This document shows, one piece after another, positions 2,234 through 17,605 of a DNA stretch of 21,647 bases. Each line of letters begins with the position of its first letter. The stretch's first letter is position 1. A model generated the notes under the pieces. It saw nothing but the letters and a program-made list of their open reading frames with translations. It was not told the DNA's origin and did no database searches. Origin of the DNA: a virus; the IMG/VR virus record IMGVR_UViG_3300032299_001331, positions 1-21,647 of that record; one strand, given 5' to 3'. The position numbers were made by a program, and so were the translations under genes.

Positions 2234-3376
2234 ATGACGAATTTTTACTGTGCAGCCCCCTGGCGTGGACTGCATATCAATCCTCGAGGCGATGTAAAAA
2301 CCTGTTGTGCTGGCGACCCCAACATGCTGGGCAATCTAAACACACAGACCATCGAACAGATCCTCAACAGTGATTTGATGACAGAAATTCGTGGCAGCAT
2401 TGCCCAGGGCCAAAGTCATCAATACTGTTCAAACTGTGTGCAAGCCGAGCGCCATGGCGGTGACTCTGAACGAGCCTGGCACAACCGAGACAATCCCAAT
2501 TTTGATTTTGCCAAGGCCGGCGACAAATATCACTATCCAGTTATTGTTGATATTCGTTGGAACACCACTTGCAATCTAAGTTGCAACTATTGTATGGAAT
2601 ATTGCAGTTCAAAATGGGCCGCGTTGAAAGGCATTCCTGTCAAGTCTGGTGCTAGACCCTACTACGAACAAGTGTGTGACTTCATCGAGCAACATTATGA
2701 ACACATTCACGAAGTAGCTCTGGTCGGCGGCGAGCCGTTGTTGCTGCCAGAAAATAATCGCTTGCTGGACGTGATACCTAAAGATGCAGTTGTTACCTTG
2801 ATTACCAATCTTACCGGCGATCTTGAAAACAATCGAATATTTCAAAAACTAGCAAAACGAAATCGTGTTGGCTGGAGTATGAGCTTTGACAACATAGGCC
2901 CAAGATTAGAATATGTTCGCTATGGCGCTGGTTGGGAAGAAATACAACGCAACCTTGCCCTGGTCAAAAATCTAATGACCACACAGGGACACTCAGGCGG
3001 CATACATGCAGTGTACAACATATACAATGCCACACGCATCTGTGAACTGCGTGAGTTTGCCAAACAGACTGGAACCACTGTGCTATGGCAGAATCTTTTT
3101 CAACCCGACTACCTTGATCCATTCTTGCATGGTCCAGCAGTTGCTGCCGAAGCAACTGCTGAGATTGAGCGCTTTTATGCATCAGGCATTGCTACCGCTG
3201 CTGAACGACTGTTCTTTGACCGTGCATTGCAGAGCTATCGTTCAGTGACCCACCCACGGCCCAATATTGAACATCAGTTTGCACAGCATATTCAACAGAT
3301 TGAAAATCAGTACCACCCAGACTCAAAAGGACAGTTTACAAGTTTGTGGCCTGAACTAGCAACTCTATGCAAATAA
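2234..3376 (+). CDS. Radical SAM protein with N-terminal SPASM/twitch-like cysteines (paralogue 1)
   Basis: This 380-residue protein is a putative radical SAM enzyme. The cluster-binding CxxxCxxC is CNLSCNYC at 113-120, and the GGEP motif is at 165-168. Before the core lies a four-cysteine segment: C6, C24 (followed by C25), C65 and C68, with CAAPWRGLHINPRGDVKTCC, a GN at 33-34 and YCSNC. This resembles the auxiliary-cluster SPASM/twitch motif, which normally follows the core. Two further genes here (9818 and 11316) share the layout. It overlaps the SGNH-like gene by 10 bp and sits in one unit with the terminase, preceded by a late-type motif. The substrate is unknown; peptide or protein modification is a family-based guess. 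Confidence 0.8.
   Translation: MTNFYCAAPWRGLHINPRGDVKTCCAGDPNMLGNLNTQTIEQILNSDLMTEIRGSIAQGQSHQYCSNCVQAERHGGDSERAWHNRDNPNFDFAKAGDKYHYPVIVDIRWNTTCNLSCNYCMEYCSSKWAALKGIPVKSGARPYYEQVCDFIEQHYEHIHEVALVGGEPLLLPENNRLLDVIPKDAVVTLITNLTGDLENNRIFQKLAKRNRVGWSMSFDNIGPRLEYVRYGAGWEEIQRNLALVKNLMTTQGHSGGIHAVYNIYNATRICELREFAKQTGTTVLWQNLFQPDYLDPFLHGPAVAAEATAEIERFYASGIATAAERLFFDRALQSYRSVTHPRPNIEHQFAQHIQQIENQYHPDSKGQFTSLWPELATLCK
3135..3161 (+). repeat. Perfect 11-bp inverted repeat inside the radical SAM gene
   Basis: CAGCAGTTGCT at 3135-3145 is exactly complementary to AGCAACTGCTG at 3151-3161, with the 5-nt loop GCCGA. It lies in an alanine-rich stretch near codon 305. No T-tract follows, so it is not a classical terminator. 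It could be an RNA-processing hairpin or a by-product of GCA/GCT alanine codons. Confidence 0.6.
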
Positions 3377-4122
3377 CAACACCTTGGCATTTTGGAATAC
3401 CGTATGCTGGCCATACCTCTGAATGGTTGCCCACAGACACCAAAGAAAATTTTCAACGGCTCATGCAAGAGCCCAAGCATCAAGAGTATTTTGGCAGCAA
3501 AGGGTGGGACCAGCCTGGTGCAATCACCTACAAAATAAACAGTCACGGATTTAGATCAGAAGAATTTGATCCTGCTGCACCTAGTATAGTGTCATTGGGT
3601 TGCAGTTATACCATTGGTATTGGCCTACCTGAACATGCTACCTGGTCACACCTGGTCGCGCAAGCCACAGGATTAAAAAACTACAATCTGGCCTGGGCTG
3701 GTACCAGTGCAGACACATGCTTTATGCAGGCGCAGTATTGGTTGCCTGTATTACACCCTAAACTGGTGGTAATGGTGGCCCCTCCCAAACACAGATTTGA
3801 TTTGATTTCAGAAGATTCCGTGCTACCACACAGCACCTACATGTCTTCAGGAGGATCATGTGAATCATATCGTGACAATTTTGTCAAAACTTGGCTGCTA
3901 AATGATCGTAACGCAGAGTTAAATAGCTCACGTAATAGATGGGCGGTGCAAGGATTGTGTGCTGATCTGGGCATTGCATGTTTGACTTACGATGCACATG
4001 AATGGTTTGCCAAGAGTCGTGAAGAATTAGAATACGCAAGAGACCACATGCACGCCGGCCCCCGTGGGCATCAGCTGCTAGCAGAAAGAATCATAAATGA
4101 TTGGCGCGAAAAACACACTTGA
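3367..4122 (+). CDS. SGNH/GDSL-hydrolase-like protein
   Basis: This 251-residue protein is probably an esterase or acyl-group hydrolase of the SGNH superfamily. The block I nucleophile motif appears as SLGCS at 76-80, with Ser80 as nucleophile; a Cys replaces the Asp of GDS, as in many family members. NLAWAGTSAD at 107-116 may hold the oxyanion residues. Block V is RDHMHAGPRGH at 225-235, with Asp226 and His229 in the D-x-x-H arrangement. No signal peptide is visible. Its ATG overlaps the end of the radical SAM gene (ATGCAAATAA), and its own end overlaps the terminase start by 26 bp, so translation is probably coupled. It may trim acyl groups from a glycan or from the radical SAM product, which is inference only. 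Confidence 0.6.
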   Translation: MQITTPWHFGIPYAGHTSEWLPTDTKENFQRLMQEPKHQEYFGSKGWDQPGAITYKINSHGFRSEEFDPAAPSIVSLGCSYTIGIGLPEHATWSHLVAQATGLKNYNLAWAGTSADTCFMQAQYWLPVLHPKLVVMVAPPKHRFDLISEDSVLPHSTYMSSGGSCESYRDNFVKTWLLNDRNAELNSSRNRWAVQGLCADLGIACLTYDAHEWFAKSREELEYARDHMHAGPRGHQLLAERIINDWREKHT

Positions 4123-5686
4123 TACAATACTTGTAAAAGCACCGCACCGTAGAGAAACATATTCAGAGTCTGAACTTGAGGACTTTGCCAAATGTGCGGA
4201 TCCGGTCACTGGGCCCATGCATTTCATGGACAACTTCTTCTACATCCAACATCCCACTCGAGGCAAGATGTTGTACCATCCTTTTGAGTATCAGAAAAGA
4301 CTGATCAACAACTATCATTCCAACAGGTTTTCAATTTCGCTGATGCCGCGACAAACAGGCAAGAGCACCAGTGCTGCGGGTTACCTGCTGTGGTATGCCA
4401 TGTTTGTGCCTGACGCAACTATTCTGATAGCAGCACACAAATACCTTGGCGCACAAGAAATCATGCAGCGTATTCGTTATGCATATGAGTTGTGCCCTAA
4501 TCATATCAGAGCAGGTGCCACCAGCTACAACAAAGGGTCACTAGAGTTTGACAACGGCTCACGTATTGTATCGCAGACCACAACTGAGAACACTGGTCGC
4601 GGTATGAGTATTACGCTGTTGTACCTAGACGAGTTTGCATTTGTGAGACCCAGCATTGCCAAAGAGTTTTGGACGTCAATCACTCCCACACTCAGCACAG
4701 GTGGTAAAGCTATTATTACTTCGACACCAAACTCAGACGAAGATCAATTTGCCTATATCTGGAAAGGTGCGTTAAAGACTCAAGATGAGTTTGGAAATCA
4801 ACGAGCCAACGGACTTGGCGTCAATGGCTTTAAAGCATTTCGTGCATTCTGGCGTGAGCACCCAGACCGAGACGAAGTCTGGGCAGCAGAGCAAAGATCC
4901 CAGCTGGGCGAAGAACGTTTTCGTCGAGAAATGGATTGCGATTTTGTTATCAACGACGAAACACTAATATCGCCGCTGAAACTGCTGGAATTGGAAGGCA
5001 TTGAACCCACTCACAAGTCTGGACAAGTACGCTGGTACAAACCCATACACAAACACAAAATGTACATTGTTGCACTGGATCCCAGTCTAGGCACAGGCGG
5101 CGACCCCGCAGCTATACAAGTGTTTGAAGCAGGATCTACTGAGCAAGTGGCAGAATGGCGGCACAACAAAACTGATGTGCCCACACAAGTTAAAATTCTA
5201 GCAGATATTGTGAAAGAAATACATGCCGTGACCAAAGACAACAAAAGCATTTATTATTCTGTGGAAAACAACACGCTTGGCGAAGCAGCACTGATAAGCA
5301 TCAACGAGTACGGAGAAGAGAATATTCCGGGTTATTTCCTAAGTGACAACAGTGTGCAGGGCAGCAGTGGCCGCAAAATCCGTAAGGGATTTACCACCAC
5401 CAACAAAAGCAAAATCAGCGCTTGTAGCAAACTGAAAATCCTGATAGAATCTGGCCGTATGAAGATCTACAGCAAACCCTTGCTGACTGAACTCAAAAGT
5501 TTTGTGGCCAACGGCACCAGCTATGCAGCCAAACCAGGCGAAACAGACGATCTTGTGATGGCCAGCTTGTTGGTCACACGCATGCTGATGTTGCTGCAAA
5601 CCTACCATTCTGATCTGGACTCGCATCTTAAAGATCACTCAGACAACCTGATCGAACCACTGCCGTTCATCAGCATCATGCGCTAA
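4097..5686 (+). CDS. terL: Terminase large subunit (T4 gp17-like)
   Basis: This 529-residue protein is the ATPase-nuclease motor that packages phage DNA into proheads. The ATPase domain shows Walker A PRQTGKST at 84-91, Walker B LLYLDEF at 174-180 with Asp178 and Glu179, and a coupling-type TSTP at 208-211. The RNase H-like nuclease domain shows ALDPS (Asp328), a VE acid at 389-390 and ETDDLVMA at 482-489. It is somewhat shorter than T4 gp17 (about 610 residues). The ATG at 4097 lies inside the preceding gene, overlapping by 26 bp, and leaves a normal N-terminal arm before the ATPase. The stop TAA is part of the next late-type motif (CTAAATA). Family assignment is secure. Confidence 0.95.
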   Translation: MIGAKNTLDTILVKAPHRRETYSESELEDFAKCADPVTGPMHFMDNFFYIQHPTRGKMLYHPFEYQKRLINNYHSNRFSISLMPRQTGKSTSAAGYLLWYAMFVPDATILIAAHKYLGAQEIMQRIRYAYELCPNHIRAGATSYNKGSLEFDNGSRIVSQTTTENTGRGMSITLLYLDEFAFVRPSIAKEFWTSITPTLSTGGKAIITSTPNSDEDQFAYIWKGALKTQDEFGNQRANGLGVNGFKAFRAFWREHPDRDEVWAAEQRSQLGEERFRREMDCDFVINDETLISPLKLLELEGIEPTHKSGQVRWYKPIHKHKMYIVALDPSLGTGGDPAAIQVFEAGSTEQVAEWRHNKTDVPTQVKILADIVKEIHAVTKDNKSIYYSVENNTLGEAALISINEYGEENIPGYFLSDNSVQGSSGRKIRKGFTTTNKSKISACSKLKILIESGRMKIYSKPLLTELKSFVANGTSYAAKPGETDDLVMASLLVTRMLMLLQTYHSDLDSHLKDHSDNLIEPLPFISIMR

Positions 5687-5689
5687 ATA
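5683..5689 (+). promoter_or_regulatory. T4-type late promoter motif (CTAAATA), short-gap class
   Basis: CTAAATA includes the terminase stop codon and ends 7 nt before the ATG at 5697. By T4 geometry the transcript would begin next to the start codon, and no Shine-Dalgarno is present. Confidence 0.5.
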
Positions 5690-5696
5690 CACTATC

Positions 5697-8036
5697 ATGG
5701 CACAAGAACAGAATATTTCAACACAGCTGGATAACCTACTGGTTACTCGCAATTTCTCCCCAGAAATGCTGGATCGACAGGGCAAACCATCAGACTCGGG
5801 AGAAGCCAAAACATTCACATTTGACTATGTGAGCAGCAGCGGCAAGAACTACGGCACCATGGTTGTTGTGCTGGACTCCGAAAACGACATGAAAGTGTTT
5901 TACGGTGACAATCTGGGCAGAGCCATGGAAGGCGACGACAAAGACGAGTTCTTTGATTTTCAGCAGCATCTCAGCAAGTTTGCTAGAATGCATCGCTGGA
6001 CCTACAGTGCCAAAGACCTGAACCAGCTCAAACACACCATGCAAGGACTTGCAGCCATACAAGAAGGCCTGTTTGAAGGCTACTATGGCACACGCCGAAT
6101 CAGTTATGCCGGCAAACCCACAGAAGCCAGACTCATGATCAAACACAATCGTGTGCTGGGCGAAGCAGATGCACGTTTTCGTTATGTGGAAAGTTTGTTT
6201 ATTGAAACAGCAGATAGTCAACGATTTCGATTGCCTTTTAAGAACCTAGCAGGCGGCCGTGCCATGTTGGAACATGTGCGTCAGGGCGGCAATCCTTACG
6301 ATGTGCGCGGCGTACACATTGCCGAAATGGTCATGGAAATTGCCACGCTGAGTCGTTTCAACCGTGCCAGTGCTAGCCGTATGCTGGAAGGCAGCACAAA
6401 AGAATTGGTCACTGAAGCGCAGACCTACTACAAAAGTCTGCGTGAAAATATCAAACGCATGGCTAGCCCTCGTGGCTATAGTGCGTATTTTGAAACTTGG
6501 CATCCTGCCACCATTGACGAACAACAAGATCTGGTGGAAGATATCAAAACACTGTTCATTGAACAGACCCTGGACACACGAATTGAGGCAGCACTGCCGC
6601 TGTTGGCCAGAATACAACAACAAGGAAACGCTATGAAAGAAGCACAAATTTTTGAAAACTGGATCAACAGCCTAACAGAAGGCACCTGGAGTTTGCCTGA
6701 AACACCAGAACAATTGAACAAGCTCAAGCAGCTTATGACCACAGAACTCATTGTGGGACCTGATGCTACCAATGCCACAGAACAACTGTATGACTTGATA
6801 GGTGATGATATCTTGTTTGATCGACTGAGCGAGTTAGCTGACAGAGATCCCAGAGCCAATGTCTGGAATGATACTGAAGTAATGGATCGTATACGTGAAC
6901 TGGGCATTGAAACAGAAACACAAGCACCTGCTGGTGCTGAGAGCGATGCAGCACCAGTTGATCCTGCCGCTGCACCGGCACCTCAGCAACCCGTGGCTGA
7001 AGGCTCGGATGATCTTAGAAGTGCTGTGTTGTCAGTGATACAAGATATTTACAATGGTGCTCAAGCAGGCGAAGACATGATTGATAACGTTTCTGATGAA
7101 CTAGGCGACTATTTCAATCATGTAAAACGTAGCAAAGATCAAACACTTCGCAAAGCATATCAACTGATGCGTCAACAAGGTGTTGAAGCAGAAGGCGATC
7201 CAGAAATGATGGCACAAGTGGCCAAACAAGCAATTGATATGTTAAGTCAGCAAGGTGTGGCAGAAGAACTCAATGCCATGCGCAAGGCAGCTGGATTACC
7301 TGTAGTGGAAGGCGTACTTACAGATTCTACCGGCAGCACATTGGATCACATTTCCAATCGCTTTGGTAAAGAAGTGCGTGATTTTGAAACATCAGGCGAA
7401 ATGAGTGATGACTTGTTCCATGCATTGTATGACTACTACTTTGATGACATGCCATATGGTACAAAAAAGGGTCGAGATGGCGATCCCTATGAATGGGTCT
7501 CAGACCGTTTTGCACAAGACCGTGGCCTAGACGAAGGCTGGAAAGGTGCAATTGCAGGAGGCCTAGCAGGCGGAGCACTGGGTAGTGTGGTGCCTGCACT
7601 GGGCACACTAGCAGGCGCAGCCGCAGGTGCATACGCTGGCCATAAACTGGGCGATCAAGGATTTAAAGATCCAGATGCAGAATATAAAAAGGCGCAGAAA
7701 CTCAAACAAACACCGCCAGTGTCAGAAGCTGATCCAATCTCTACATTTGAAGTCATGAGCGGATTTGCTGCGCCGACTGCAAATGAAGAGATTGATCCCA
7801 TGGATACAGAAAAATCTCAGAACATGGCCATGGGTGCCGCCTTTCCGGCTGTAGGCCTGGGCATACTTGAAGGCAGTTGCAACATGACCACAGAAGGCGA
7901 ATACTGCCCCGAACACGGACTCATGGAATGCGGCATGTACGAAATGGGCACTGTGGCAGGCGGAATGGCTCCTGTGGTAGGCGAGGGCAAACAGGATCCC
8001 TTGGTGAGAATTAAATCTCTGGCCTTGATCAAATAA
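5697..8036 (+). CDS. Large phage protein of unknown function, possibly a processed head protein
   Basis: I do not recognise this 779-residue protein. Residues 1-405 are a mixed, largely helical region. An Ala/Pro linker follows at about 409-434, then acidic helices at about 437-535. A glycine-zipper stretch at 613-652 (AIAGGLAGGALGS, then AGAAAGAYAG) could insert in a membrane. A Cys/His cluster sits at 728-745 (C728, C737, H740, C745) and may bind zinc. Seven [ILV]-x-E followed by Gly sites, at about 123, 127, 328, 435, 538, 613 and 725, resemble T4 prohead-protease cleavage sites. Position after the terminase and a late-type motif suggest late expression. A virion or prohead role is inference. 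Confidence 0.6.
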   Translation: MAQEQNISTQLDNLLVTRNFSPEMLDRQGKPSDSGEAKTFTFDYVSSSGKNYGTMVVVLDSENDMKVFYGDNLGRAMEGDDKDEFFDFQQHLSKFARMHRWTYSAKDLNQLKHTMQGLAAIQEGLFEGYYGTRRISYAGKPTEARLMIKHNRVLGEADARFRYVESLFIETADSQRFRLPFKNLAGGRAMLEHVRQGGNPYDVRGVHIAEMVMEIATLSRFNRASASRMLEGSTKELVTEAQTYYKSLRENIKRMASPRGYSAYFETWHPATIDEQQDLVEDIKTLFIEQTLDTRIEAALPLLARIQQQGNAMKEAQIFENWINSLTEGTWSLPETPEQLNKLKQLMTTELIVGPDATNATEQLYDLIGDDILFDRLSELADRDPRANVWNDTEVMDRIRELGIETETQAPAGAESDAAPVDPAAAPAPQQPVAEGSDDLRSAVLSVIQDIYNGAQAGEDMIDNVSDELGDYFNHVKRSKDQTLRKAYQLMRQQGVEAEGDPEMMAQVAKQAIDMLSQQGVAEELNAMRKAAGLPVVEGVLTDSTGSTLDHISNRFGKEVRDFETSGEMSDDLFHALYDYYFDDMPYGTKKGRDGDPYEWVSDRFAQDRGLDEGWKGAIAGGLAGGALGSVVPALGTLAGAAAGAYAGHKLGDQGFKDPDAEYKKAQKLKQTPPVSEADPISTFEVMSGFAAPTANEEIDPMDTEKSQNMAMGAAFPAVGLGILEGSCNMTTEGEYCPEHGLMECGMYEMGTVAGGMAPVVGEGKQDPLVRIKSLALIK

Positions 8037-8044
8037 CATAAATA
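8037..8044 (+). promoter_or_regulatory. T4-type late promoter motif (CATAAATA)
   Basis: CATAAATA differs from the T4 core TATAAATA at the first base only. It begins directly after the stop codon of the 779-residue gene and ends 24 nt before the micro-ORF at 8069, the same gap as for the genes at 268 (23 nt) and 17606 (24 nt). Confidence 0.55.
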
Positions 8045-8068
8045 AAACAAAGAAGAGCATGTAGTGGC

Positions 8069-8143
8069 ATGCCCTTCCGTAAACAACTAGATAGGCAAAG
8101 TTCGCTACCTTTAGTGGTAGGAAACACAGACAAGCTGTGTTAA
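8069..8143 (+). CDS. Putative 24-residue micro-ORF
   Basis: The frame ATG CCC TTC CGT ... TGT TAA encodes 24 residues starting MPFRKQLDRQSS and ending TDKLC. A purine-rich AGAAGAG at 8051-8057 could serve as a ribosome-binding site, 11 nt before the ATG. A late-type motif lies 24 nt upstream. Hairpins at 8105-8120 and 8123-8141 lie inside its 3' half, which could mean that translation controls RNA folding (leader-peptide behaviour). The single Cys at the last position is notable. It could also be a chance frame: 24 codons is short, and no homologue can be checked here. Confidence 0.35.
   Translation: MPFRKQLDRQSSLPLVVGNTDKLC
8105..8141 (+). other. Tandem RNA hairpins upstream of gp32
   Basis: CTACC at 8105-8109 pairs with GGTAG at 8116-8120 (loop TTTAGT). 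AACACAG at 8123-8129 pairs perfectly with CTGTGTT at 8135-8141 (loop ACAAG). They sit in the gap before the gp32 gene, within the micro-ORF. They may shape the leader RNA. No long T-tract follows, so termination is not the obvious role. Confidence 0.45.
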
Positions 8144-8161
8144 AATAACCTTGTAGGCAGC

Positions 8162-8185
8162 ATTTAAGCAAGTCTTAAATTTTTT
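8162..8185 (+). terminator. Hairpin plus T-run before gp32: terminator-like or gp32 operator
   Basis: ATTTAAG at 8162-8168 pairs perfectly with CTTAAAT at 8174-8180 around the loop CAAGT, and a run of six T ends the element at 8180-8185. This looks like a weak, AU-rich intrinsic terminator that could close the upstream unit. In T4, gp32 binds a structured, AU-rich leader to repress its own translation. The position here, 34 nt before the gp32 start, allows that reading too. Confidence 0.4.
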
Positions 8186-8218
8186 AATCATATTAACGCA
8201 CAAGAAAGGCAACACAAT

Positions 8219-9211
8219 ATGGCATCCTTAGCAGAAATTCGTGCCCGTTTACAGGCATCAGAGAACAAAGGTTCTAACAACACAGGCGGTGGCGACAAGT
8301 CAATTTACCCGCACTGGAACATGGAAGAAGGCCAAGCAGCCACACTACGCTTCCTGCCCGACGGCAACAACAAAAACACATTCTTTTGGGCAGAGCGAGC
8401 CATGATTCGACTGCCATTCAATGGCGTCAAAGGTGAGATGGATTCCAAACAAGTCATGGTACAGGTGCCATGCGTTGAGATGTGGGGCGATGCTTGCCCA
8501 ATCTTGGCAGAAGTACGCACCTGGTTCAAGGACAAGAGTCTGGAAGACATGGGTCGCAAGTACTGGAAAAAGCGCAGCTACATCATGCAGGGTTTTGTGC
8601 GTGAAAATCCCATCGGTGACGACAAAACTCCGGACAATCCAATCCGCAAGTTTATCATTGGCCCTCAGTTGTTTACTCTGATCAAGAGCGCACTGATGGA
8701 TCCAGAACTGGAAGAATTGCCAACCGACACCTTGCGTGGCCTGGACTTCCGCATTGCCAAGACCCAAAAGGGTGGTTACGCAGACTACAACACCAGCAAG
8801 TGGGCTCGCAAGGAATCGGCCTTGACTGAAACCGAGCAAGCAGCCGTTGATGCACACGGCTTGTTTGACTTGAGCACATTCTTGCCCAAGAAACCTGGCG
8901 ATGTTGAGCTCCGAGTAATCAAGGAAATGTTTGAAGCATCGGTAGATGGTCAGCCCTACGACACAGAGCGTTGGGGTCAGTATTTCCGTCCTGCTGGTGT
9001 CAATGCACCTGGTGGCGCTGCTGCCAGTCATGATGATGCAGAAGCAGCACCTGTGGCTCGCACTGCACCTGTGGCAAAACCTGTGGCATCTAGCCCTGCC
9101 TGGGAAGATGACGCAGCAGAAGCAGCCGCTGCACCTATCACCAAACCAGCAGGCGGCAATCAAAAGGCCGAAGACATTCTGGCTATGATTAGGGCTCGCC
9201 AAGCCAAGTAA
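8219..9211 (+). CDS. 32: Single-stranded DNA-binding protein (T4 gp32-like)
   Basis: This 330-residue protein coats single-stranded DNA during replication, recombination and repair. The N-terminus (SLAEIRARLQ, residues 3-12) is basic and helical like the T4 cooperativity domain. The core, about residues 28-245, has the gp32 pattern, including ATLRFLPDG at 41-49, KYWKKRSYIMQGFV and FIIGPQLFTLIKSAL. The T4 zinc site seems incomplete: C85 and C93 fit T4 C77 and C87, but no counterpart of H64 or C90 is visible. The C-terminus has acidic patches and an Ala/Pro linker but ends in a basic helix (DILAMIRARQAK). AAGAAAGG at 8202-8209 gives a good ribosome-binding site. It heads a run of genes to uvsY. 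Confidence 0.9.
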   Translation: MASLAEIRARLQASENKGSNNTGGGDKSIYPHWNMEEGQAATLRFLPDGNNKNTFFWAERAMIRLPFNGVKGEMDSKQVMVQVPCVEMWGDACPILAEVRTWFKDKSLEDMGRKYWKKRSYIMQGFVRENPIGDDKTPDNPIRKFIIGPQLFTLIKSALMDPELEELPTDTLRGLDFRIAKTQKGGYADYNTSKWARKESALTETEQAAVDAHGLFDLSTFLPKKPGDVELRVIKEMFEASVDGQPYDTERWGQYFRPAGVNAPGGAAASHDDAEAAPVARTAPVAKPVASSPAWEDDAAEAAAAPITKPAGGNQKAEDILAMIRARQAK

Positions 9212-9837
9212 TGCAAACTCCTCTATATACAGAGTTGTTTCCAAATCAGTGTGAAGTGGTAGAGATGCCACTTCACACTCAATGGATTTACTTGATTCAG
9301 AAAAATGGAAGCAGCAGTTTGAGAGGCATTGCCAGAAGAGACAATCTCTCGGTGCTGGTCAACCAACAACTGGAATCTTTAAAATTTGTTGATGTATATG
9401 TTCGTAATCCCAAAGATAGATATGTCAGTGGGGTCAACACCTACCTACAACATTTTCAACGCGATCACCCTGATTTAGATCCTGCTACAGCATTTTGGTT
9501 TGCAAAACATTACAAATTTCTAAATAGTCATTATCTACCGCAGTTTTATTGGCTAGTAAATTTAAGCAAGCACATTGGGGTCAATACCAAAATTAGACTT
9601 AGAAATTTTGAAGACATAGGATCAGTGGCAGCCTGGAACGACAAAGCAGGTGTGGAGCCTCCAGACGATCAGTTTATGAATCGGCTGTTTGAAAATGATA
9701 AAATCATAGAATTATATCTGTTTCTAGATCAAATATTGCTGGATCTAATTGGCAACGAATTTACATGGGCCGAACTGGTAGAACACTATCGCACCAATCA
9801 CGCATTTGTAATTGACCATGTATTGCCCAAGACTTGA
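9211..9837 (+). CDS. Sulfotransferase-like protein
   Basis: This 208-residue protein probably transfers sulfate from PAPS to a sugar or other acceptor. The 5'-phosphosulfate loop appears as IQKNGSSSL at 29-37, and the 3'-phosphate-binding motif as VRNPKDRYVSG at 64-74. Both fit the carbohydrate sulfotransferase families (Sulfotransfer_2-like). It is shorter than cellular homologues and has no membrane anchor. Its ATG overlaps the gp32 stop (TAATG), so translation is coupled to a replication gene. A perfect 12-bp hairpin lies within codons 13-23. Acceptor unknown; candidates are a host or phage glycan, or a product of the adjacent radical SAM enzymes. The fold assignment is fairly confident, the role is not. 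Confidence 0.75.
   Translation: MQTPLYTELFPNQCEVVEMPLHTQWIYLIQKNGSSSLRGIARRDNLSVLVNQQLESLKFVDVYVRNPKDRYVSGVNTYLQHFQRDHPDLDPATAFWFAKHYKFLNSHYLPQFYWLVNLSKHIGVNTKIRLRNFEDIGSVAAWNDKAGVEPPDDQFMNRLFENDKIIELYLFLDQILLDLIGNEFTWAELVEHYRTNHAFVIDHVLPKT
9248..9279 (+). repeat. Perfect 12-bp inverted repeat at the start of the sulfotransferase gene
   Basis: AGTGTGAAGTGG at 9248-9259 is exactly complementary to CCACTTCACACT at 9268-9279, with loop TAGAGATG. It lies 37 nt past the gp32 stop, inside the sulfotransferase reading frame. No T-tract follows. The RNA stem would be stable enough to block 3' exonucleases or slow ribosomes, so it may set gp32 apart from downstream genes. Confidence 0.7.
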
Positions 9838-10783
9838 CCATTTTGTACGTTTTAATCCCAACGGCACAGTGAGTCGTTGCGGACACATGGTGTCGCCTCC
9901 ACAGTTTGAATCACTAGAACAAATGGATTCAAGTGCCTGGCTAGCTGATATCAAAAGCAACTCAGACACATGGCCCAAGGAATGTGTGCGATGTCAACAA
10001 ACAGAACAAATCAACAACACCAGCATAAGACTCAATGCTATAGAATTTGATAAAACACAAACACGTTTGAACTATCTCACAGTTGGCGGAGTATTGGACA
10101 ATATTTGTAACAGTGCTTGTCAATCCTGCAATCAAAATCTAAGTACAAAAATAGGTAGTTTAATATCCAATGACTATCCTATGATAGACAATTCAAAGGC
10201 GTTTTGGCAGCTACCTCTTGAACGAGTGATACATCTAGACATCAACGGCGGCGAACCCAGTGCTAGTAAAAATTATCGCAACATACTCAAAAACATTCCG
10301 TCATCAGTGACCAGTGTCAGGATCAACACCAATTGTTCCAAGGTCATACCAGAAATACAACAGCTATTAGACAACAATGTGCATGTGACGGTTACAGTAA
10401 GCCTGGACGGCATCGGCCGTGTGCATGATTATGTACGCTGGCCTATAAAATGGAATGACTTTGAAAAGAATCTGAACGAATACAAAAAAATGGGTATACA
10501 AGAATTAAACACCTGGACCACTGTGAGTGCTTTGAATATTGGTGACTTGAACAATATTTTTGGATATGCTAAAGAACAGGGACTTGATCACTCCTGGGCA
10601 TTGGTAGCACAACCAGACGTGCTGAATGTAAAATACAGTAATCATTTTACAAGGACAGCTGATGTTCCTGATGTATTAAAAAATATTGTGGCACAGGATC
10701 GAGATAACACAGTTGAATTGCAATTGTGGACATGTCAACAGGATCAGTTGCGCAGCATCAAACTATGGGATTATTTCAAATGA
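9818..10783 (+). CDS. Radical SAM protein with N-terminal SPASM/twitch-like cysteines (paralogue 2)
   Basis: This 321-residue protein has the same plan as the gene at 2234. The N-terminal cysteines are C3, C21, C56 and C59 (CVRC). The radical SAM CxxxCxxC is CNSACQSC at 97-104, and NGGEP is at 143-147. SLDGIGRVHDYVRW in the second half matches radical SAM core strands of the family. A longer frame could begin at a TTG at 9812, but the ATG at 9818 puts the first cysteine at residue 3 and overlaps the sulfotransferase by 20 bp. It ends in an ATGA overlap with the dehydrogenase gene. It is the most diverged of the three copies. Reaction and substrate are unknown. Confidence 0.78.
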   Translation: MYCPRLDHFVRFNPNGTVSRCGHMVSPPQFESLEQMDSSAWLADIKSNSDTWPKECVRCQQTEQINNTSIRLNAIEFDKTQTRLNYLTVGGVLDNICNSACQSCNQNLSTKIGSLISNDYPMIDNSKAFWQLPLERVIHLDINGGEPSASKNYRNILKNIPSSVTSVRINTNCSKVIPEIQQLLDNNVHVTVTVSLDGIGRVHDYVRWPIKWNDFEKNLNEYKKMGIQELNTWTTVSALNIGDLNNIFGYAKEQGLDHSWALVAQPDVLNVKYSNHFTRTADVPDVLKNIVAQDRDNTVELQLWTCQQDQLRSIKLWDYFK

Positions 10784-11319
10784 AGATAGCAATCACTGGC
10801 GGCACAGCAGGAATTGGCCAGGCCCTGGGCAACAAATACGAAGCACTTGGACATGAAGTATTACGACTGAGTCGGCGCACAGGCCATAACATCCGAGTGA
10901 TACCAAAAATGGCCGACGCGATACAATCCTGTGACCTGTTTATTAACAACGCACAGGCAGGCTATGCCCAGACTGAATTGCTATTTGCAATGGCCGATCG
11001 ATGGCGCGGCACCAAAAAACACATCATGGTGATCAGTACTCAAATGACACAATCACCGGTATCAAGTCTTCCTGGGCTGGATATGGATCAGTATAGAATA
11101 CAAAAAGTTACACTGGAAGAATCAGTTCGACAACTACGAAGTCGAGATCTTGACATCAGATTCACTATTGTACGTCCAGGAAACATAGCCACAAGTCCTG
11201 ATAAAACTGTACCTCCAGCAGCTGATGTTGACAATTGGGCCAACACCTTGATTGATATTTTTGAACTAGCTCGAATACAGAATTTACGTATATCGGACAT
11301 TAACCTAGGACCGTTGTGA
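10780..11319 (+). CDS. Short-chain dehydrogenase/reductase (SDR)
   Basis: This 179-residue protein is a probable NAD(P)-dependent oxidoreductase. The Rossmann motif TGGTAGIG is at 6-13, an NNAG-like NNAQAG at 56-61, a likely catalytic Ser at 86 (VIST), and the YxxxK pair is Tyr105-Lys109, followed by RPGN at 132-135. It is shorter than the typical 250 residues and lacks much of the C-terminal substrate-binding region. Upstream ATGs in the same frame exist, but the one at 10780 forms an ATGA overlap with the preceding stop and puts the Rossmann strand at the N-terminus. It sits between two radical SAM genes, suggesting a common pathway. Substrate unknown. Confidence 0.8.
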   Translation: MKIAITGGTAGIGQALGNKYEALGHEVLRLSRRTGHNIRVIPKMADAIQSCDLFINNAQAGYAQTELLFAMADRWRGTKKHIMVISTQMTQSPVSSLPGLDMDQYRIQKVTLEESVRQLRSRDLDIRFTIVRPGNIATSPDKTVPPAADVDNWANTLIDIFELARIQNLRISDINLGPL

Positions 11320-12470
11320 CTCCCAAAGATGTGTTAACCAATCGGAATTTTTGTCCCATGCCATGGACTGGATTGATGTATAATGTTGACGGCAAGGTAA
11401 AAAATTGTATTCGTAGTGCTGGAGAACTAGGTAATCTTAAACATAATACCATTGAAGAAATTCTACACAGTGATATTAATCTTGACACCCAACAACGCAT
11501 GTTGAACAACCAGCCTGGAAAAACTTGTCACACTTGTTATGATCTTGAAGCTGACAAAACAAGTTTTGATATCATCAGTGATAGAATTTTTTACATAAGA
11601 GAACTCAAACAAATACCACTAAGCACTTATCAACTTGATCAACACAACTTACAAACCATTGATGTGCGATGGACCAATTTGTGTAATTTTGCTTGTGTGT
11701 ATTGTAGCTCAGAATTTAGCAGTCGCTGGGCCAATGAATTAAACCAACCGGCGGTTCGTCCAAATTCTGAACAGCTTGCACAGTTTAAACAATATATCTT
11801 TGACCATGCGCCCACGCTTAAACATGTATACATGGCCGGCGGCGAACCCTTGTTGATGAAAGAAAATTTAGAACTATTAGAACTACTGCAAAAAACCAAT
11901 CCCAATGTAAATCTTCGAATCAATACTAACCTGAGCAAAACTCATACTCGAGTGTTTGATAAAATTTGTGAATTTCCCAATGTACACTGGACTGTGAGTG
12001 TGGAAACCACAGCTGATGAGTTCGAATACATAAGATACGGCGGCCGCTGGGAAGATTTTTTAGAAAATTTACAAAAAATAAAACAGCTTGATCATAAAAT
12101 TAGTTTCAACATGCTTTGGTTTTTGTTAAACTACCGTTCTGTATTTGATTGTGTAGACTATCTAAAACATCTGGGGTTCCACAACAACAGTTTTATAATT
12201 GGAGCACTGTTGAGTCCAGAATACCTAAATATTAGACATTTGCCAGAACATGTGTTACAATTCTTAAAGAGCAAGATACAACAGAGAGTCAATGACCATC
12301 CTGGGTATCTTCTCGAAGACAGTTACAAAAACATGTTGAGTTATATACAACAACCGTTTGAAAAAGATCTAGCAGGATCGTTTATCAAGATAAAAGAGTT
12401 GGATCAACGAAGAAACATTGACAGCAGTAAAATTTTTACAGACTTATACAAATTTAAAGAAGGGCATTAA
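11316..12470 (+). CDS. Radical SAM protein with N-terminal SPASM/twitch-like cysteines (paralogue 3)
   Basis: This 384-residue protein resembles the gene at 2234 along its length. N-terminal cysteines are C13, C31, C71 and C74, again with 18 residues between the first two. The segment MPWTGLMYNVDGKVKNC parallels APWRGLHINPRGDVKTC of paralogue 1. The CxxxCxxC is CNFACVYC at 123-130 and GGEP is at 175-178. Both copies share WANEL/WAALK and EYIRYGGRWED/EYVRYGAGWEE type segments. The likely start is a GTG at 11316 overlapping the dehydrogenase stop (GTGA). The gene ends 2 bp before uvsX, so it is probably expressed with recombination genes. Substrate unknown. Confidence 0.8.
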   Translation: MTPKDVLTNRNFCPMPWTGLMYNVDGKVKNCIRSAGELGNLKHNTIEEILHSDINLDTQQRMLNNQPGKTCHTCYDLEADKTSFDIISDRIFYIRELKQIPLSTYQLDQHNLQTIDVRWTNLCNFACVYCSSEFSSRWANELNQPAVRPNSEQLAQFKQYIFDHAPTLKHVYMAGGEPLLMKENLELLELLQKTNPNVNLRINTNLSKTHTRVFDKICEFPNVHWTVSVETTADEFEYIRYGGRWEDFLENLQKIKQLDHKISFNMLWFLLNYRSVFDCVDYLKHLGFHNNSFIIGALLSPEYLNIRHLPEHVLQFLKSKIQQRVNDHPGYLLEDSYKNMLSYIQQPFEKDLAGSFIKIKELDQRRNIDSSKIFTDLYKFKEGH

Positions 12471-12472
12471 TC

Positions 12473-13537
12473 ATGGGCAAACCATTTGACATAAGCAAGT
12501 TCCGCAAGGAAATCACCAAGAGCATCGACGGCCTTAGCATTGGATTCAACGATCCAACTGACTGGGTTGGCACAGGCAACTATGCCTTGAACTATCTGAT
12601 CTCAGGAGACTTCAACCGTGGTATTCCACTGGGCAAGGTCACTGTGTTTGCCGGAGATTCTGGTGCAGGCAAAAGCTACATTTGTTCAGGAAACATTGTG
12701 AAGAACGCACAAGAACAAGGTATCTTTGTGGTGTTAGTCGACAGCGAGAATGCGCTGGACGAATCTTGGTTGCAGGCCTTGGGTGTAGACACCTCAGAAA
12801 GCAAATTGCTCAAGCTGAGTATGGCCATGATCGACGATGTGGCCAAGACTATTGCCACATTCATGAGCGACTACAAGGCACTACCGGATGGTGAACGCCC
12901 CAAGGTCATGTTTGTTATCGACAGTCTGGGCATGTTGCTTACTCCTACTGATGTGAATCAGTTTGAAGCAGGCGAAATGAAGGGTGACCTGGGTCGTAAA
13001 CCCAAAGCACTTACCAGCTTGGTTCGTAACTGTGTGAACATGTTTGGCAGCTACAACGTTGGCATGGTTTGTACCAACCACACCTATGCCAGTCAAGACA
13101 TGTTTGATCCCGATGACAAGATCTCCGGAGGACAGGGTTTCATTTACGCAAGTTCTATCGTGGTTGCTATGAAAAAACTTAAGCTCAAAGAAGACGAAGA
13201 AGGCAACAAAGTTTCTGAAGTCAACGGTATTCGTGCTGCCTGCAAGATCATGAAAACACGATATGCCAAGCCGTTTGAAGGTGTGCAGGTCAAAATTCCT
13301 TACACAACAGGCATGAGTCCGTATTCGGGTCTTACTGATCTCATTGAGAAAAAAGGCCTACTCAAGCGTGAAGGCAATAGCTTGGTGTTTACCACCAGCG
13401 ACGGTGAAATTATCAAGAAGTTCCGCAAGGCCTGGGAAGCCAATACTGATGGTTGTTTGGATGTTGTTATGAAAGACTTTGCCAATCAAAAGAGCGAGGT
13501 AAGTATTCCTGACATTGAACAGGAGGAAAACCAATGA
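12473..13537 (+). CDS. uvsX: UvsX recombinase (RecA-like)
   Basis: This 354-residue protein is the phage strand-exchange recombinase used in recombination-dependent replication and repair. Walker A is GDSGAGKS at 61-68. A hydrophobic strand ending in the Walker B acid is VMFVIDSLG at about 144-152. The segments QGIFVVLVDSENALD and NVGMVCTNHTYAS match the UvsX/RecA core, and a GGQGFIYASS segment corresponds to the DNA-binding loop region. Length is close to that of T4 UvsX (about 390). A purine-rich AAAGAAGGG at 12456-12464 precedes the ATG. The stop overlaps the next gene (ATGA). Position with gp32 and uvsY supports the call. Confidence 0.95.
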   Translation: MGKPFDISKFRKEITKSIDGLSIGFNDPTDWVGTGNYALNYLISGDFNRGIPLGKVTVFAGDSGAGKSYICSGNIVKNAQEQGIFVVLVDSENALDESWLQALGVDTSESKLLKLSMAMIDDVAKTIATFMSDYKALPDGERPKVMFVIDSLGMLLTPTDVNQFEAGEMKGDLGRKPKALTSLVRNCVNMFGSYNVGMVCTNHTYASQDMFDPDDKISGGQGFIYASSIVVAMKKLKLKEDEEGNKVSEVNGIRAACKIMKTRYAKPFEGVQVKIPYTTGMSPYSGLTDLIEKKGLLKREGNSLVFTTSDGEIIKKFRKAWEANTDGCLDVVMKDFANQKSEVSIPDIEQEENQ

Positions 13538-14253: not shown

Positions 14254-14265
14254 CACTTGGCCACT

Positions 14266-14272
14266 GTAAATA
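14266..14272 (+). promoter_or_regulatory. T4-type late promoter motif (GTAAATA), short-gap class
   Basis: GTAAATA lies after the uvsY stop and ends 5 nt before the ATG at 14278. The context CTGTAAATAC closely repeats that upstream of 2234. It marks the switch from the replication operon to the glycan island. Confidence 0.5.
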
Positions 14273-14277
14273 CCAGT

Positions 14278-15036
14278 ATGAAAATTGTATTAGTAACCGG
14301 GGGTTTTGACCCTGTGCATTCTGGACACATTGCTTATTTTTCTGCTGCTAGAGAACTAGGTGACAAGCTGTATGTTGGCCTCAACAGTGACGCTTGGTTG
14401 CGCCGCAAAAAAGGGTCAGCATTCATGCCTTGGTCTGAACGTGCTGCTGTTGTGGCAGCCATGCATGTGGTTGATCGAGTTATTGAATTTGATGATTCAG
14501 ACGGATCAAGTTGTGCTGCAATCGAAGCAGTGAAACAACTACATCCAGGTCATGAAATTGTCTTTGCCAATGGTGGTGATCGCACACAAGATAACATTCC
14601 CGAAATGCGTGTACCCAACGTGGAGTTTGCGTTTGGCGTTGGCGGCCAAGATAAAAAGAACAGCTCAAGCTGGATTCTGCAAGAGTGGAAGGCCCCCAAA
14701 ACCAGTCGAGCCTGGGGATACTATCGTGTGTTGCACGAAGTGGGTGCCAACACCAAGCTCAAAGAGCTCACGGTCATGCCCAAAACCTGTTTGAGCATGC
14801 AACGCCATGATCAACGTGCAGAGTTTTGGTTTGTGGCCGAAGGCACTGCCACAGTGTACACCTTGGATGAATCCAGCACAGATCCTGACGTCAAGTGTTA
14901 TCTAGATGTGCATGAACACACCTTTATTGAATGTCGCGAATGGCATCAGCTGTGCAACGAAACTGATCAACCATTAAAACTGATTGAGATTCAGTATGGC
15001 GACAACTGCGTCGAAGAAGACATAGAACGCCAATGA
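14278..15036 (+). CDS. Nucleotidyltransferase-cupin fusion for sugar-nucleotide synthesis
   Basis: This 252-residue protein fuses two domains. Residues 1-140 are a cytidylyltransferase-like (HIGH-type) domain with GGFDPVHSGH at 8-17, NSDAWLRRKKG at 36-46 and an NGGDR at 98-102, similar to the sugar-phosphate nucleotidyltransferases of heptose pathways. Residues 141-252 resemble the cupin half of type II mannose-6-phosphate isomerases: SRAWGYYRVL, then LKELTVMP, LSMQRHDQRAEFW with His177 and Glu182, and EWHQL with His223. A TTG at 14257 would add seven residues, but the ATG at 14278 starts the beta strand properly and follows a late-type motif. It overlaps the next gene by ATGA. It probably supplies an activated sugar to the glycosyltransferases downstream; the sugar is not known. 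Confidence 0.8.
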   Translation: MKIVLVTGGFDPVHSGHIAYFSAARELGDKLYVGLNSDAWLRRKKGSAFMPWSERAAVVAAMHVVDRVIEFDDSDGSSCAAIEAVKQLHPGHEIVFANGGDRTQDNIPEMRVPNVEFAFGVGGQDKKNSSSWILQEWKAPKTSRAWGYYRVLHEVGANTKLKELTVMPKTCLSMQRHDQRAEFWFVAEGTATVYTLDESSTDPDVKCYLDVHEHTFIECREWHQLCNETDQPLKLIEIQYGDNCVEEDIERQ

Positions 15037-15716
15037 AGCCAATTCCTGTATTTGTGGGCTATGATCCCAGAGAAGCCATTGCGTATCATACCTGTGTAAA
15101 CAGTATCATTCGAAACAGTTCACAACCTGTGGCCATTGTGCCTGTGGCTTTGAATCTGTTTCAAGACTATGCAGAAACACACACAGACGGATCAAATCAT
15201 TTTATCTACACACGTTTTCTTGTGCCGTATCTAATGGAGTATACTGGTCATGCTATCTTTATAGATGGTGACATGATTGTGCGTGGCGATATTGCTGAAC
15301 TTTGGGCACTGCGAGATCCCAAGATGGACGTGCAGGTGGTCAAACATGACTACAAAACTCGTATGCCTGTAAAATACCTAGGAGCAAAAAATGAAGACTA
15401 TCCTCGAAAAAATTGGAGTAGTGTTATTTTGTGGAATTGTGCTAGCTTTCCTAACCGGCGACTTACTCCCGAGTTCGTCCAACACAGCACCGGCAGTGAG
15501 CTCCACCGCTTCTCGTGGATAGACGACGACCGTATAGGTGCTCTATCTCCTGAATGGAACTGGTTGCCCGATGAATACGGGCCCAATACCGACGCCAGGT
15601 TACTGCACTACACACTTGGCACGCCATGCTTTCAGGAGTTTGCTGATACGCCGCAAGGCAACGAATGGCACAGAGAACGTATCTTAACTGAATACTGCTT
15701 GCAAAGACAAATTTAA
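15033..15716 (+). CDS. Glycosyltransferase, GT-A fold, GT8-like
   Basis: This 227-residue protein probably transfers a sugar from a nucleotide sugar. The N-terminus (PVFVGYDPREAIAYHTCVNSI, residues 5-25) and the segment FIYTRFLVPYLMEY with FIDGDMIVRGDIAELW (57-91) carry the GT8-type layout, with DGD at 78-80 as the metal-binding DxD. Later SSVILWNC and a histidine-containing LLHYTLGTP fit the acceptor and metal-binding side. It is coupled to the nucleotidyltransferase-cupin gene by an ATGA overlap, so the pair may make and use one sugar nucleotide. Its stop shares the TTAA at 15713-15716 with the convergent gene. Donor and acceptor are unknown. Confidence 0.78.
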   Translation: MKPIPVFVGYDPREAIAYHTCVNSIIRNSSQPVAIVPVALNLFQDYAETHTDGSNHFIYTRFLVPYLMEYTGHAIFIDGDMIVRGDIAELWALRDPKMDVQVVKHDYKTRMPVKYLGAKNEDYPRKNWSSVILWNCASFPNRRLTPEFVQHSTGSELHRFSWIDDDRIGALSPEWNWLPDEYGPNTDARLLHYTLGTPCFQEFADTPQGNEWHRERILTEYCLQRQI

Positions 15717-16354
15717 ACCCAGTGCTGTTGCACCAAGGCATGATGACTCATGGTGCTGGGTTTCTGAGATACTTTTCTAAACATCAATATTTTTACTGCG
15801 CTAAGATCCAGCGCTGCGTCTTTGCGTGACGCTATGTGAAACCAATCCACAGGGCAGTGATCAGTCAACAAGGTGTGATTGGTGTGTTCACTGATAATGG
15901 CTTGGTCACCATACAAGGGCGGAGAGCTGTATAACGATTGCCAGTGTGCCAGGGGTTGACTTTGGTATAGGCTCCACAAATAGCTGTGATCTCCTTGCCA
16001 ATACATAAAAGCACTTGAGTGTATGTTCTTGTCTGCTTCATGCCACATGACAAACTTTTGGTCTGTTAGTCTAGCCATCACATGATCCAAGTTGCTGCAT
16101 ATCACAGTGTCAAGGTCCAAGAACAAGGTTGGACCAGACAATATACCAGGGCGAAACAACTGCATCTTGCTCCAGAAACCATGATCGCCGGACAACAGTT
16201 CTATTCGTTCGCAAGACACCGCACAGTCGCTGAAACAAACAAATCGATGTGGCAGTGTTAGATTACGTTCAACACTACGTTGGAGTTTGGCCACCCACTC
16301 AGCATCATACCCAACCTTGCCGCCTTGCCGTAACAAGCACACAACATTAAGCAT
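15713..16354 (-). CDS. Putative glycosyltransferase, GT-A fold
   Basis: This 213-residue protein carries GFWSKMQLFRPGIL at 59-72 followed by TLFLDLDTVICSNL at 76-89, where D80-L-D82 is the likely metal-binding DxD of a GT-A glycosyltransferase. The same block occurs in the gene at 20861 (WWYKMQLFNPALF, then LYFDLDCIVVNDL), so the two are paralogues. A YGDQAII segment near residue 150 fits the GDQ.. motif seen in this type of transferase. Its ATG lies inside the end of the methyltransferase gene before it (8-bp overlap). It ends convergently with the GT8-like gene. Donor and acceptor are unknown. Confidence 0.7.
   Translation of the reverse strand: MLNVVCLLRQGGKVGYDAEWVAKLQRSVERNLTLPHRFVCFSDCAVSCERIELLSGDHGFWSKMQLFRPGILSGPTLFLDLDTVICSNLDHVMARLTDQKFVMWHEADKNIHSSAFMYWQGDHSYLWSLYQSQPLAHWQSLYSSPPLYGDQAIISEHTNHTLLTDHCPVDWFHIASRKDAALDLSAVKILMFRKVSQKPSTMSHHALVQQHWV
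15715..15763. terminator. Possible bidirectional terminator between convergent genes
   Basis: AAACCCAG at 15715-15722 pairs with CTGGGTTT at 15756-15763; inside, CACCA at 15731-15735 can pair with TGGTG at 15751-15755, or CATGA at 15739-15743 with TCATG at 15748-15752. T-rich stretches follow on both strands. It begins at the stop of the plus-strand gene and overlaps the last codons of the minus-strand gene, as expected for a shared terminator of convergent units. Confidence 0.5.
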
Positions 16355-16919
16355 AACGTTCTAGCACAAGTAGTCCAGAATTCTTGTTACAGTGTTCCAC
16401 AATGTGCCATTGTCGATTACCATGCAAAAATATAATTACAGCTTCAAACACTCCAGGCCACTCACTGGGGTCATGCAGTATAATATATTGACTTACTTTT
16501 TCTGAATGACGGTTGAGTTCTGCTAGACAGTGAGGTCGTTTGTGTACAGTATCAATAAACAACAAATCGCATGGTTCAATGTCTAGTTCTAAACTATTGC
16601 CAATATTGAATTCAAAATCTATGTTGTGTTGTATGGCATTGTGTGTTAGTTCTGCCAGCACAGACAAGTTCTCATCAGTGATGTCATAACTGCGAAGATA
16701 TTTTGGTTTGCCCGTTAACCAAGCACAGGTGCTTAACCCGGTGTACACACCAAATTCAACAATACGATCTACCTGTTGTGCATATCTTGTGTAGGTGTCA
16801 AATCGATCTGGACTGTCACCTAACCAGGTTGTGGGCTGAATAGTCAAGTTAACGAAATCTGTTTTGAGTTGTTCCAAGGTTCTCATAGTTTTATCCAATG
16901 TATTTGTAAACTGTATCAT
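16347..16919 (-). CDS. Class I SAM-dependent methyltransferase-like protein
   Basis: This 190-residue protein (from the first ATG) is probably a SAM-dependent methyltransferase. Motif I is VEFGVYTGLSTCAWL at 54-68, a conserved acid follows in RSYDIT (Asp79), and LLFIDTVHKRPHCLAEL at 119-135 with ILHDPSEW at 147-154 resembles the Methyltransf_24/cephalosporin-hydroxylase type group acting on sugars. The first ATG at 16919 overlaps the preceding FkbM gene by 29 bp. An alternative ATG at 16886 (MRTLEQLKTDF) avoids overlap and is about equally plausible. Two methyltransferases of different families lie side by side, suggesting O-methylation of glycan units. The substrate is inferred from context only. 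Confidence 0.65.
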   Translation of the reverse strand: MIQFTNTLDKTMRTLEQLKTDFVNLTIQPTTWLGDSPDRFDTYTRYAQQVDRIVEFGVYTGLSTCAWLTGKPKYLRSYDITDENLSVLAELTHNAIQHNIDFEFNIGNSLELDIEPCDLLFIDTVHKRPHCLAELNRHSEKVSQYIILHDPSEWPGVFEAVIIFLHGNRQWHIVEHCNKNSGLLVLERYA

Positions 16920-17565
16920 GATCCCATTTTACATAAATTTCATAGCTCCAAGATTTTAACAACTCGTCAATCTTGTGTTGTGGCCAACCGTAATCGTCTC
17001 CACTGCCGTTGGTTTCCAGCACAATCAATGGCCGGCATTTGTTGATGGTCAACTGTGCCCCTAACAGTGCATGTGCTTCAAATCCTTCTACATCTAGGTG
17101 TATCAGGTCCGGGCAAACCTCCAATGAGTCAATGGTAATTTGTTTTATAGTGCCAGGGCCCTTTATTTTCAATGCTCCGGTGTTGGTTTCGTTCCATCTG
17201 GCATTGGTTTGTAGCTCAATTGACGATTCAACGTCACCAACTGCGGCCTGATGTTTTATGACATTTTGTTCTGGCACATTGTGGCACAGGCATGTGAAGT
17301 TTCTGTAGTCTGGCTCTAGTGTTATAACTGTTTGAAATATTTTACTGTATTGTTTGGGATAAAGTCCTGCATTACCGCCAGCTTGGATCACTAGACTTTT
17401 GTTTTCACAAAGATTTGATATTTGAACAGGCAAGTCCCAGTGTCCAATTTTGTTGAGCCATTTCCAAGCCCAGACATCTTCATTGGGCCATAACCATGAT
17501 CCAGCATGTCTGCGGCTTTGTCTGTAACCCAGATCCAATGAGCTAAAAGTATCTTGCACCAACAT
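16891..17565 (-). CDS. FkbM-family methyltransferase
   Basis: This 224-residue protein matches FkbM-type SAM-dependent O-methyltransferases, often found in polysaccharide clusters. Motif I appears as VIQAGGNAGLYPKQYSKIF at 59-77, with the acidic LEP at 83-85, the family's TIDSL at 144-148 and IHLDVEGFEAHALLGA at 155-170. AAGGAA sits only 2 nt before the ATG at 17565, unusually close; a GTG two codons later would have normal spacing, so the true start may be at 17559. It begins in the shared promoter region with the divergent GT25-like gene. Likely acts on a sugar hydroxyl. Confidence 0.82.
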   Translation of the reverse strand: MLVQDTFSSLDLGYRQSRRHAGSWLWPNEDVWAWKWLNKIGHWDLPVQISNLCENKSLVIQAGGNAGLYPKQYSKIFQTVITLEPDYRNFTCLCHNVPEQNVIKHQAAVGDVESSIELQTNARWNETNTGALKIKGPGTIKQITIDSLEVCPDLIHLDVEGFEAHALLGAQLTINKCRPLIVLETNGSGDDYGWPQHKIDELLKSWSYEIYVKWDHDTVYKYIG

Positions 17566-17573
17566 TTCCTTGT

Positions 17574-17581
17574 TATAAATA
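17574..17581 (+). promoter_or_regulatory. Exact T4 late promoter core (TATAAATA)
   Basis: TATAAATA is identical to the T4 late consensus core. It lies in the gap between divergent genes and ends 24 nt before the ATG at 17606, giving a predicted leader of about 18 nt. Confidence 0.65.
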
Positions 17582-17593
17582 AACTACTAACAT

Positions 17594-17602: not shown

Positions 17603-17605
17603 GCA

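Follow-up and report, generated by a model that had tools for sequence, protein, structure and literature searches.

A hairpin that follows gp32 is encoded within the first gene of a recurrent enzyme cassette between gp32 and uvsX in T4-like jumbo-phage relatives

BtrN, a twitch radical S-adenosylmethionine (radical SAM) enzyme, oxidises an aminocyclitol alcohol. AprD4 is a radical SAM enzyme that acts on a sugar together with an NAD(P)H reductase, AprD3 (PMC5461906), and pelagimyophages carry radical SAM gene cassettes in their host-recognition cluster (PMC7029224). Among the phage mRNAs of T4, that of gene 32 is the most stable, and its processing close to the 3' end is conserved (PMC3014915). 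Here we analyse the window, a stretch of 21,647 nucleotides covering positions 1 to 21,647 of the IMG/VR virus record IMGVR_UViG_3300032299_001331, which derives, as a fragment, from a T4-like jumbo-phage lineage. Between gp32, for a single-stranded DNA binding protein, and the recombinase gene uvsX it holds four tightly packed genes, for a probable sulfotransferase (ST), a radical SAM enzyme (rSAM1), a short NAD(P)-dependent dehydrogenase/reductase (SDR) and a second radical SAM enzyme (rSAM2). We report that this cassette recurs at the same site in many relatives, and that the ST frame contains a conserved hairpin whose location depends on the distance to gp32.

Gene content was read from four IMG/VR scans in which loci were seeded by pattern, so that distant relatives are under-sampled; the less biased set, selected by uvsX, comprises 63 contigs with gp32 before uvsX. 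Between these two genes, nothing is present in 18 contigs, other genes in 34, the full cassette in 10 and ST with rSAM1 in 1. Close homologues of rSAM1 were found on 169 contigs, with gp32 upstream and uvsX downstream wherever the contig was long enough and none at other sites, and 154 of the 169 share the order ST-rSAM1-(optional oxygenase-like gene)-SDR-rSAM2. Some of these contigs repeat the same virus; the set corresponds to about 104 distinct ST sequences at 5% difference, and locus counts do not equal independent events. Since about 100 distinct sequences from viruses share the arrangement, it is not due to chance. Larger contigs that lack the cassette at this site had no ST elsewhere in their sequence.

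Five cultured jumbo phages have gp32 and uvsX as direct neighbours, and the cassette is therefore best read as an insertion; tblastn searches of cultured phage records with ST, rSAM1 and rSAM2 gave no match. As the gap is either empty or filled with unrelated accessory genes in relatives, we consider it a hot spot for such genes, other occupants being a formyltransferase, a hexapeptide acyltransferase, an AMP-ligase and an Asp/Asn hydroxylase. With this variability, the location gives no support to a replication-linked role. An earlier, sequence-only reading of the window had proposed a comparison of gene content, and this showed that the four genes are for the most part gained and lost together, at a single site. 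Partial forms exist, with ST and rSAM1 only (L078, L227), with SDR and rSAM2 behind other genes in place of ST and rSAM1 (L124 group), or with rSAM2 and an ST relic (L148); ST+rSAM1 and SDR+rSAM2 thus behave as two half-modules. The site in contig L011 has received an insertion of 8 kb (2060-9948), with genes for a hexapeptide acyltransferase, a B12-binding radical SAM enzyme and a protein that resembles transporters.

The hairpin lies 38-69 nt from the start codon of ST, which follows gp32 without a spacer. Its arms, AGTGTGAAGTGG and CCACTTCACACT, enclose a loop and form a perfect stem of 12 bp, the longest perfect stem of the window (z = -6.4 for its region). We scanned for hairpins with loops of up to 20 nt, as a limit of 9 nt misses the second of two ST classes. 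Among 104 distinct ST genes, stems of at least 9 bp are centred 50-100 nt from the start in 96 and within the first 50 nt in 15, and any other 50-nt bin of ST, rSAM1, SDR, rSAM2, uvsX or gp32 has at most 3 of them. Shuffling the synonymous codons of ST gave a mean best stem of 4.7, compared to 10.7 observed. The stem sequences of the two ST classes differ and the 3' arm is shifted by one codon. One class provided 34 aligned sequences, in which 96.8% of the cells of the stem pair and both-side changes occur in 6 of 12 pairs, compared to 2.0 after shuffling and 0-2 after sliding; variation is lower in the class of the window, with both-side changes in three pairs of the main stem.

All 18 empty sites have a perfect stem of at least 9 bp after the gp32 stop codon, and all five cultured phages one of 7-10 bp after gp32. 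Where distinct ST genes start at most 30 nt from gp32, every one contains a stem of at least 8 bp (101/101), whereas ST genes at least 44 nt away have no stem at that position (0/9) and a stem in the spacer (9/9); the Fisher value for 101/101 against 0/9 takes no account of phylogeny. In L148, ST is cut to about 45 codons and the loop sequence is altered, with a perfect 12-bp stem retained. Of the genes other than ST that lie flush with gp32, four (in L007, L026, L028 and L043) contain stems of 11-13 bp within the first 120 nt, and the others contain none.

The pattern of gp32 adjacency, the stems in the spacers and the relic with its stem in L148 indicate that the hairpin belongs to gp32 and not to ST. 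It is quite unlikely that it serves ST itself, by translation control, or a DNA process: its nearness to the ST start codon and a second, weaker hairpin at ST codons 3-10 in one ST class would fit such a role, but ST genes behind a spacer lack the stem while the spacer has one, L148 keeps the stem without an intact ST, and sites without ST have it as well.

The hairpin of gp32 would most likely be a 3' stabiliser or partial terminator of the gp32 mRNA, giving much gp32 and little downstream enzyme. The best-fitting mode may be a 3' barrier that protects the gp32 mRNA, with the downstream part lost faster or read through less. The scarcity of U-runs weighs against intrinsic termination: embedded hairpins are followed by a mean of 3.2 T in 8 nt, with at least 5 T in 13 of 101, and mostly lack the U-run of intrinsic terminators; in the window the tail reads CAATGGATTT. 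A simple intrinsic terminator is unlikely for this reason. Noncoding hairpins have at least 5 T in 5 of 17 cases, and many are likewise poor intrinsic terminators.

The sequence-only reading had also proposed that the cassette is made together with replication proteins. The cassette follows gp32 with no spacer and probably lies in its transcription unit, on a shared transcript; that the 3' hairpin of gp32 is kept inside the ST frame argues, however, for unequal expression of gp32 and the cassette and against simple co-production. Promoter and terminator scans of the cassette gave results at chance level. Table 1 lists the features, as called mechanically, and their junctions bear out exactly the four overlapping accessory genes that had been described between gp32 and uvsX at 9211-12470. 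The stop codon TAA of gp32 (9209-9211) gives its last A to the ATG of ST (TAATG, 9209-9213), ST and rSAM1 overlap by 20 bp, rSAM1 and SDR by ATGA and SDR and rSAM2 by GTGA, and rSAM2 ends 2 nt before uvsX. The nearest phage records to uvsX are jumbo phages of Sinorhizobium, Vibrio, Xanthomonas, Cronobacter, Pectobacterium and Agrobacterium, at 62-67% identity.

Table 1. The gp32-uvsX region of the window: genes, hairpin and the basis of each assignment
Feature	Position	Strand	Basis and remarks
gp32-like single-stranded DNA binding protein	8219..9211	+	PHROG 1192, E 1.5e-63; upstream neighbour of cassette
ST, probable PAPS-dependent sulfotransferase, 208 aa	9211..9837	+	Conserved residues, Sulfotransfer_2 in relatives, structure match
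12-bp perfect hairpin within ST frame (codons 13-23)	9248..9279	+	Stem conservation, synonymous-codon control, compensatory pairs, z = -6.4
rSAM1, radical SAM enzyme, 321 aa	9818..10783	+	NF033640 124 bits (below cut-off), cysteines, homology to rSAM2
SDR, short NAD(P)-dependent dehydrogenase/reductase, 179 aa	10780..11319	+	Epimerase family and motifs
rSAM2, twitch radical SAM enzyme, 384 aa	11316..12470	+	NF033640 258 bits, motifs; GTG start
uvsX recombinase	12473..13537	+	PHROG 97, E 3.8e-67; downstream neighbour of cassette

Upstream of gp32, many relatives (e.g. L031, L201) have a promoter-like pair, TTGACA-17 nt-TATACT, which overlaps an inverted repeat carrying a T-run, as well as several copies of an AGGCAAC motif before gp32; the window has only part of this arrangement (8037-8218).

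ST is probably a sulfotransferase dependent on 3'-phosphoadenosine 5'-phosphosulfate (PAPS). Residues N32, R65, R70, G74, H107 and Q111 are invariant in 37 sequences and K31 and S73 nearly so; by analogy with PAPS-type enzymes, K31 would bind the 5'-phosphosulfate, and R65 and S73 the 3'-phosphate. The ST of the window has no Pfam family match by itself, remaining below the gathering scores of Sulfotransfer_1 and Sulfotransfer_2, and Sulfotransfer_2 matches 6 of the 37 family members, at best with E 0.0015. The ST model (pLDDT 90) matches a predicted phage model annotated as 'Sulfotransferase family' (E 4.5e-14, TM 0.78). In the PDB, its top matches are heparan sulfate 3-O-sulfotransferases, which are weak (E 0.16), and a sequence search of solved structures yielded no useful match. 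After gp32 in L124, L003, L007 and L080 stand several unrelated alternative genes of the hot spot, whose N-termini are P-loop-like (e.g. GSMGNTILAHAL) and, to the eye, similar to other sulfotransferases.

The two radical SAM enzymes are homologous by profile comparison (E 1.7e-20) and both have an invariant CxxxCxxC motif, formed by C97/C101/C104 in rSAM1 (CNSACQSC) and C123/C127/C130 in rSAM2 (CNFACVYC). Against the twitch radical SAM family NF033640, with a cut-off of 170 bits, rSAM2 scores 258.2 and rSAM1 124.3, so that the latter counts only as a relative. Four N-terminal cysteines in each, C3, C21, C56 and C59 in rSAM1, where they are twitch-like, and C13, C31, C71 and C74 in rSAM2, are predicted ligands of an auxiliary cluster; the rSAM1 cysteines are invariant across 26 sequences, as are the motifs of rSAM2 in its family. 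SkfB is the best profile match of both enzymes, in rSAM2 to the radical SAM part, and the N-terminal part of rSAM2 resembles the twitch region of BtrN. We also tried to read a substrate class from the fold of rSAM2 and rejected this, as the fold search does not discriminate. A third twitch radical SAM gene of the window (2234-3376), above the NF033640 cut-off, overlaps an SGNH-hydrolase-like gene (3367-4122) before terL, and similar insertions recur at this junction in relatives. In two single phage contigs, L197 (145 kb) and L201 (213 kb), the twitch radical SAM family is unusually expanded, with 15 matches in the former and 12 in the latter, some of them weak.

SDR matches Epimerase/SDR families (Epimerase 26.6 bits, cut-off 20.9) and, though short at 179 aa, has the classical TGxxxGxG and YxxxK signature, with motifs TGxxxGIG, NNAQ and YxxxK and invariant T6, G7, G11, G13, Y105 and K109. 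In about 30 loci a fifth gene, mostly of 157-205 aa, lies between rSAM1 and SDR. Its invariant H80, D82, H129 and R141 (15 sequences) form an HxD...H pattern with an arginine and suggest a 2-oxoglutarate (2OG)/Fe(II)-oxygenase-like protein; it matches Pfam Asp_Arg_Hydrox weakly (E 0.014) and no solved structure. Profile comparison failed to connect it to the Asp/Asn hydroxylase found at the same site.

Exchange within the cassette is evident from the nearest relative, L002, which is 95-97% identical to the window in gp32, rSAM2, uvsX and terL, but only 35% in ST, 57% in rSAM1 and 72% in SDR; alleles of these three genes have been swapped between otherwise near-identical phages. Median ratios of nonsynonymous to synonymous substitution (dN/dS) are 0.14 for ST, 0.075 for rSAM1, 0.08 for SDR and 0.07 for rSAM2, showing purifying selection. 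Since the genes also move largely as a block, the single joint pathway of the sequence-only reading is likely, qualified by the partial forms of ST+rSAM1 and SDR+rSAM2.

We give an even chance to the proposal that the four genes, five in some relatives, are one exchangeable cassette tailoring a sugar or glycan, with the virion or the surface of the infected cell as its probable place. The twitch radical SAM enzymes would, in the manner of BtrN or AprD4/AprD3, activate sugar C-H bonds for oxidation, epimerisation or deoxygenation, the small SDR would reduce or oxidise a keto intermediate, and ST would sulfate a hydroxyl with PAPS; the order of these reactions is conjectural, as is the substrate. 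This proposal draws on the enzyme classes, the AprD4/AprD3 precedent and the BtrN-like twitch, as well as on the alternating occupants of the site, the radical SAM cassettes of pelagimyophages and the glycan genes downstream in the window (14257-21598), which comprise an HldE-like (heptose-1-P) adenylyltransferase fused to a mannose-6-phosphate isomerase-type cupin, GT8, GT25, FkbM and another methyltransferase-like gene. It draws also on the swapping of ST, rSAM1 and SDR alleles, as expected for a variable surface decoration. Some results weigh against it: by eye, the presence of the cassette is not associated with the neighbouring hldE/GT8 glycan genes, which occur with and without it, and a fold search with the rSAM2 model ranked RiPP (ribosomally synthesised and post-translationally modified peptide) maturases, MoaA, anSME and BlsE about equally, with AprD4 at rank 39.

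A serious, though unlikely, rival is maturation of a RiPP-like ribosomal peptide, or modification of a protein of the phage or its host, by the radical SAM pair; ST would then sulfate one of the residues, and the optional oxygenase would hydroxylate one. This reading would account for SkfB as the best profile match of both enzymes, for fold matches that include SkfB, SuiB and anSME, and for the weak match of the optional gene to Asp/Asn hydroxylases; yet the junctions, mostly overlapping or of a few nt, leave no space for a precursor peptide, and SPASM/twitch matches are generic. It is improbable that the cassette hypermodifies nucleotides or phage DNA. Its site among replication genes and a weak fold likeness of rSAM2 to the nucleotide or nucleoside enzymes viperin, QueE and BlsE agree with this, but relatives have the site empty or occupied by unrelated genes, and no gp32 or uvsX was seen beside the SDR-ST-rSAM1 genes of L249. 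That the genes are selfish or near-neutral passengers of the hot spot, with no joint pathway, is highly improbable, for although many different genes use the site and GC at third codon positions is lower in the cassette (0.34-0.39, against 0.53 in gp32 and uvsX), the low dN/dS medians (0.07-0.14), the invariant catalytic residues and the same order in 154 loci all contradict it.

The contig L249, 10 kb long and phage-like, is filed in an assembly of Porticoccaceae; it carries four radical SAM genes and, at its end, a helicase-like one. It groups SDR-ST-rSAM1 with a 2OG-like gene and an SGNH gene and belongs to a different phage type with a more distant cassette group. A genome scan for a bacterial source of the cassette yielded only this contig, apparently of phage origin, and the candidate was dropped.

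Returning to the sugar-tailoring proposal, the cassette would have entered the gp32-uvsX hot spot without a spacer, and the hairpin of gp32 would have been preserved by encoding it inside the ST frame. We tentatively extend this, at somewhat less than even likelihood, to a rule for the whole lineage: the gp32 mRNA needs a following hairpin, and a gene inserted flush evolves to encode it in frame, so that the sequence of an enzyme is partly shaped by an upstream RNA element, while the product of the enzymes would be a new sugar decoration that is both sulfated and radically modified. The locus defines a recurrent, uncharacterised enzyme pathway of uncultured phages, with four to five proteins for joint expression. 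It also provides a natural experiment in which a neighbouring coding sequence has taken up an RNA regulatory element, represented by intact, relocated and relic forms; how phages treat gp32 differently from the other genes of its operon thereby becomes directly testable.

Compared with known systems, rSAM2 and the gene at 2234-3376 score above the cut-off of N_Twi_rSAM (NF033640), whereas rSAM1 is shorter, divergent and below it. The cassette resembles AprD4/AprD3 in pairing a radical SAM enzyme with an NAD(P)H reductase, its own action on a sugar being predicted, and BtrN in the N-terminal twitch of rSAM2. It differs from both in that the twitch is N-terminal and that two radical SAM enzymes and ST are combined, with no specific sequence match to AprD4. 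Pelagimyophages (PMC7029224) are likewise T4-like aquatic phages that gain and lose radical SAM cassettes amid glycan genes, but between VrlC and gp14, and the words sulfotransferase, uvsX and gp32 are absent from that text. The mRNA of T4 gene 32, with its 3' processing by RNase E (PMC3014915), shares with the arrangement that we propose a special stability and a control at the 3' end of gp32 mRNA; in this lineage, a covarying hairpin is encoded in the frame of the next gene.

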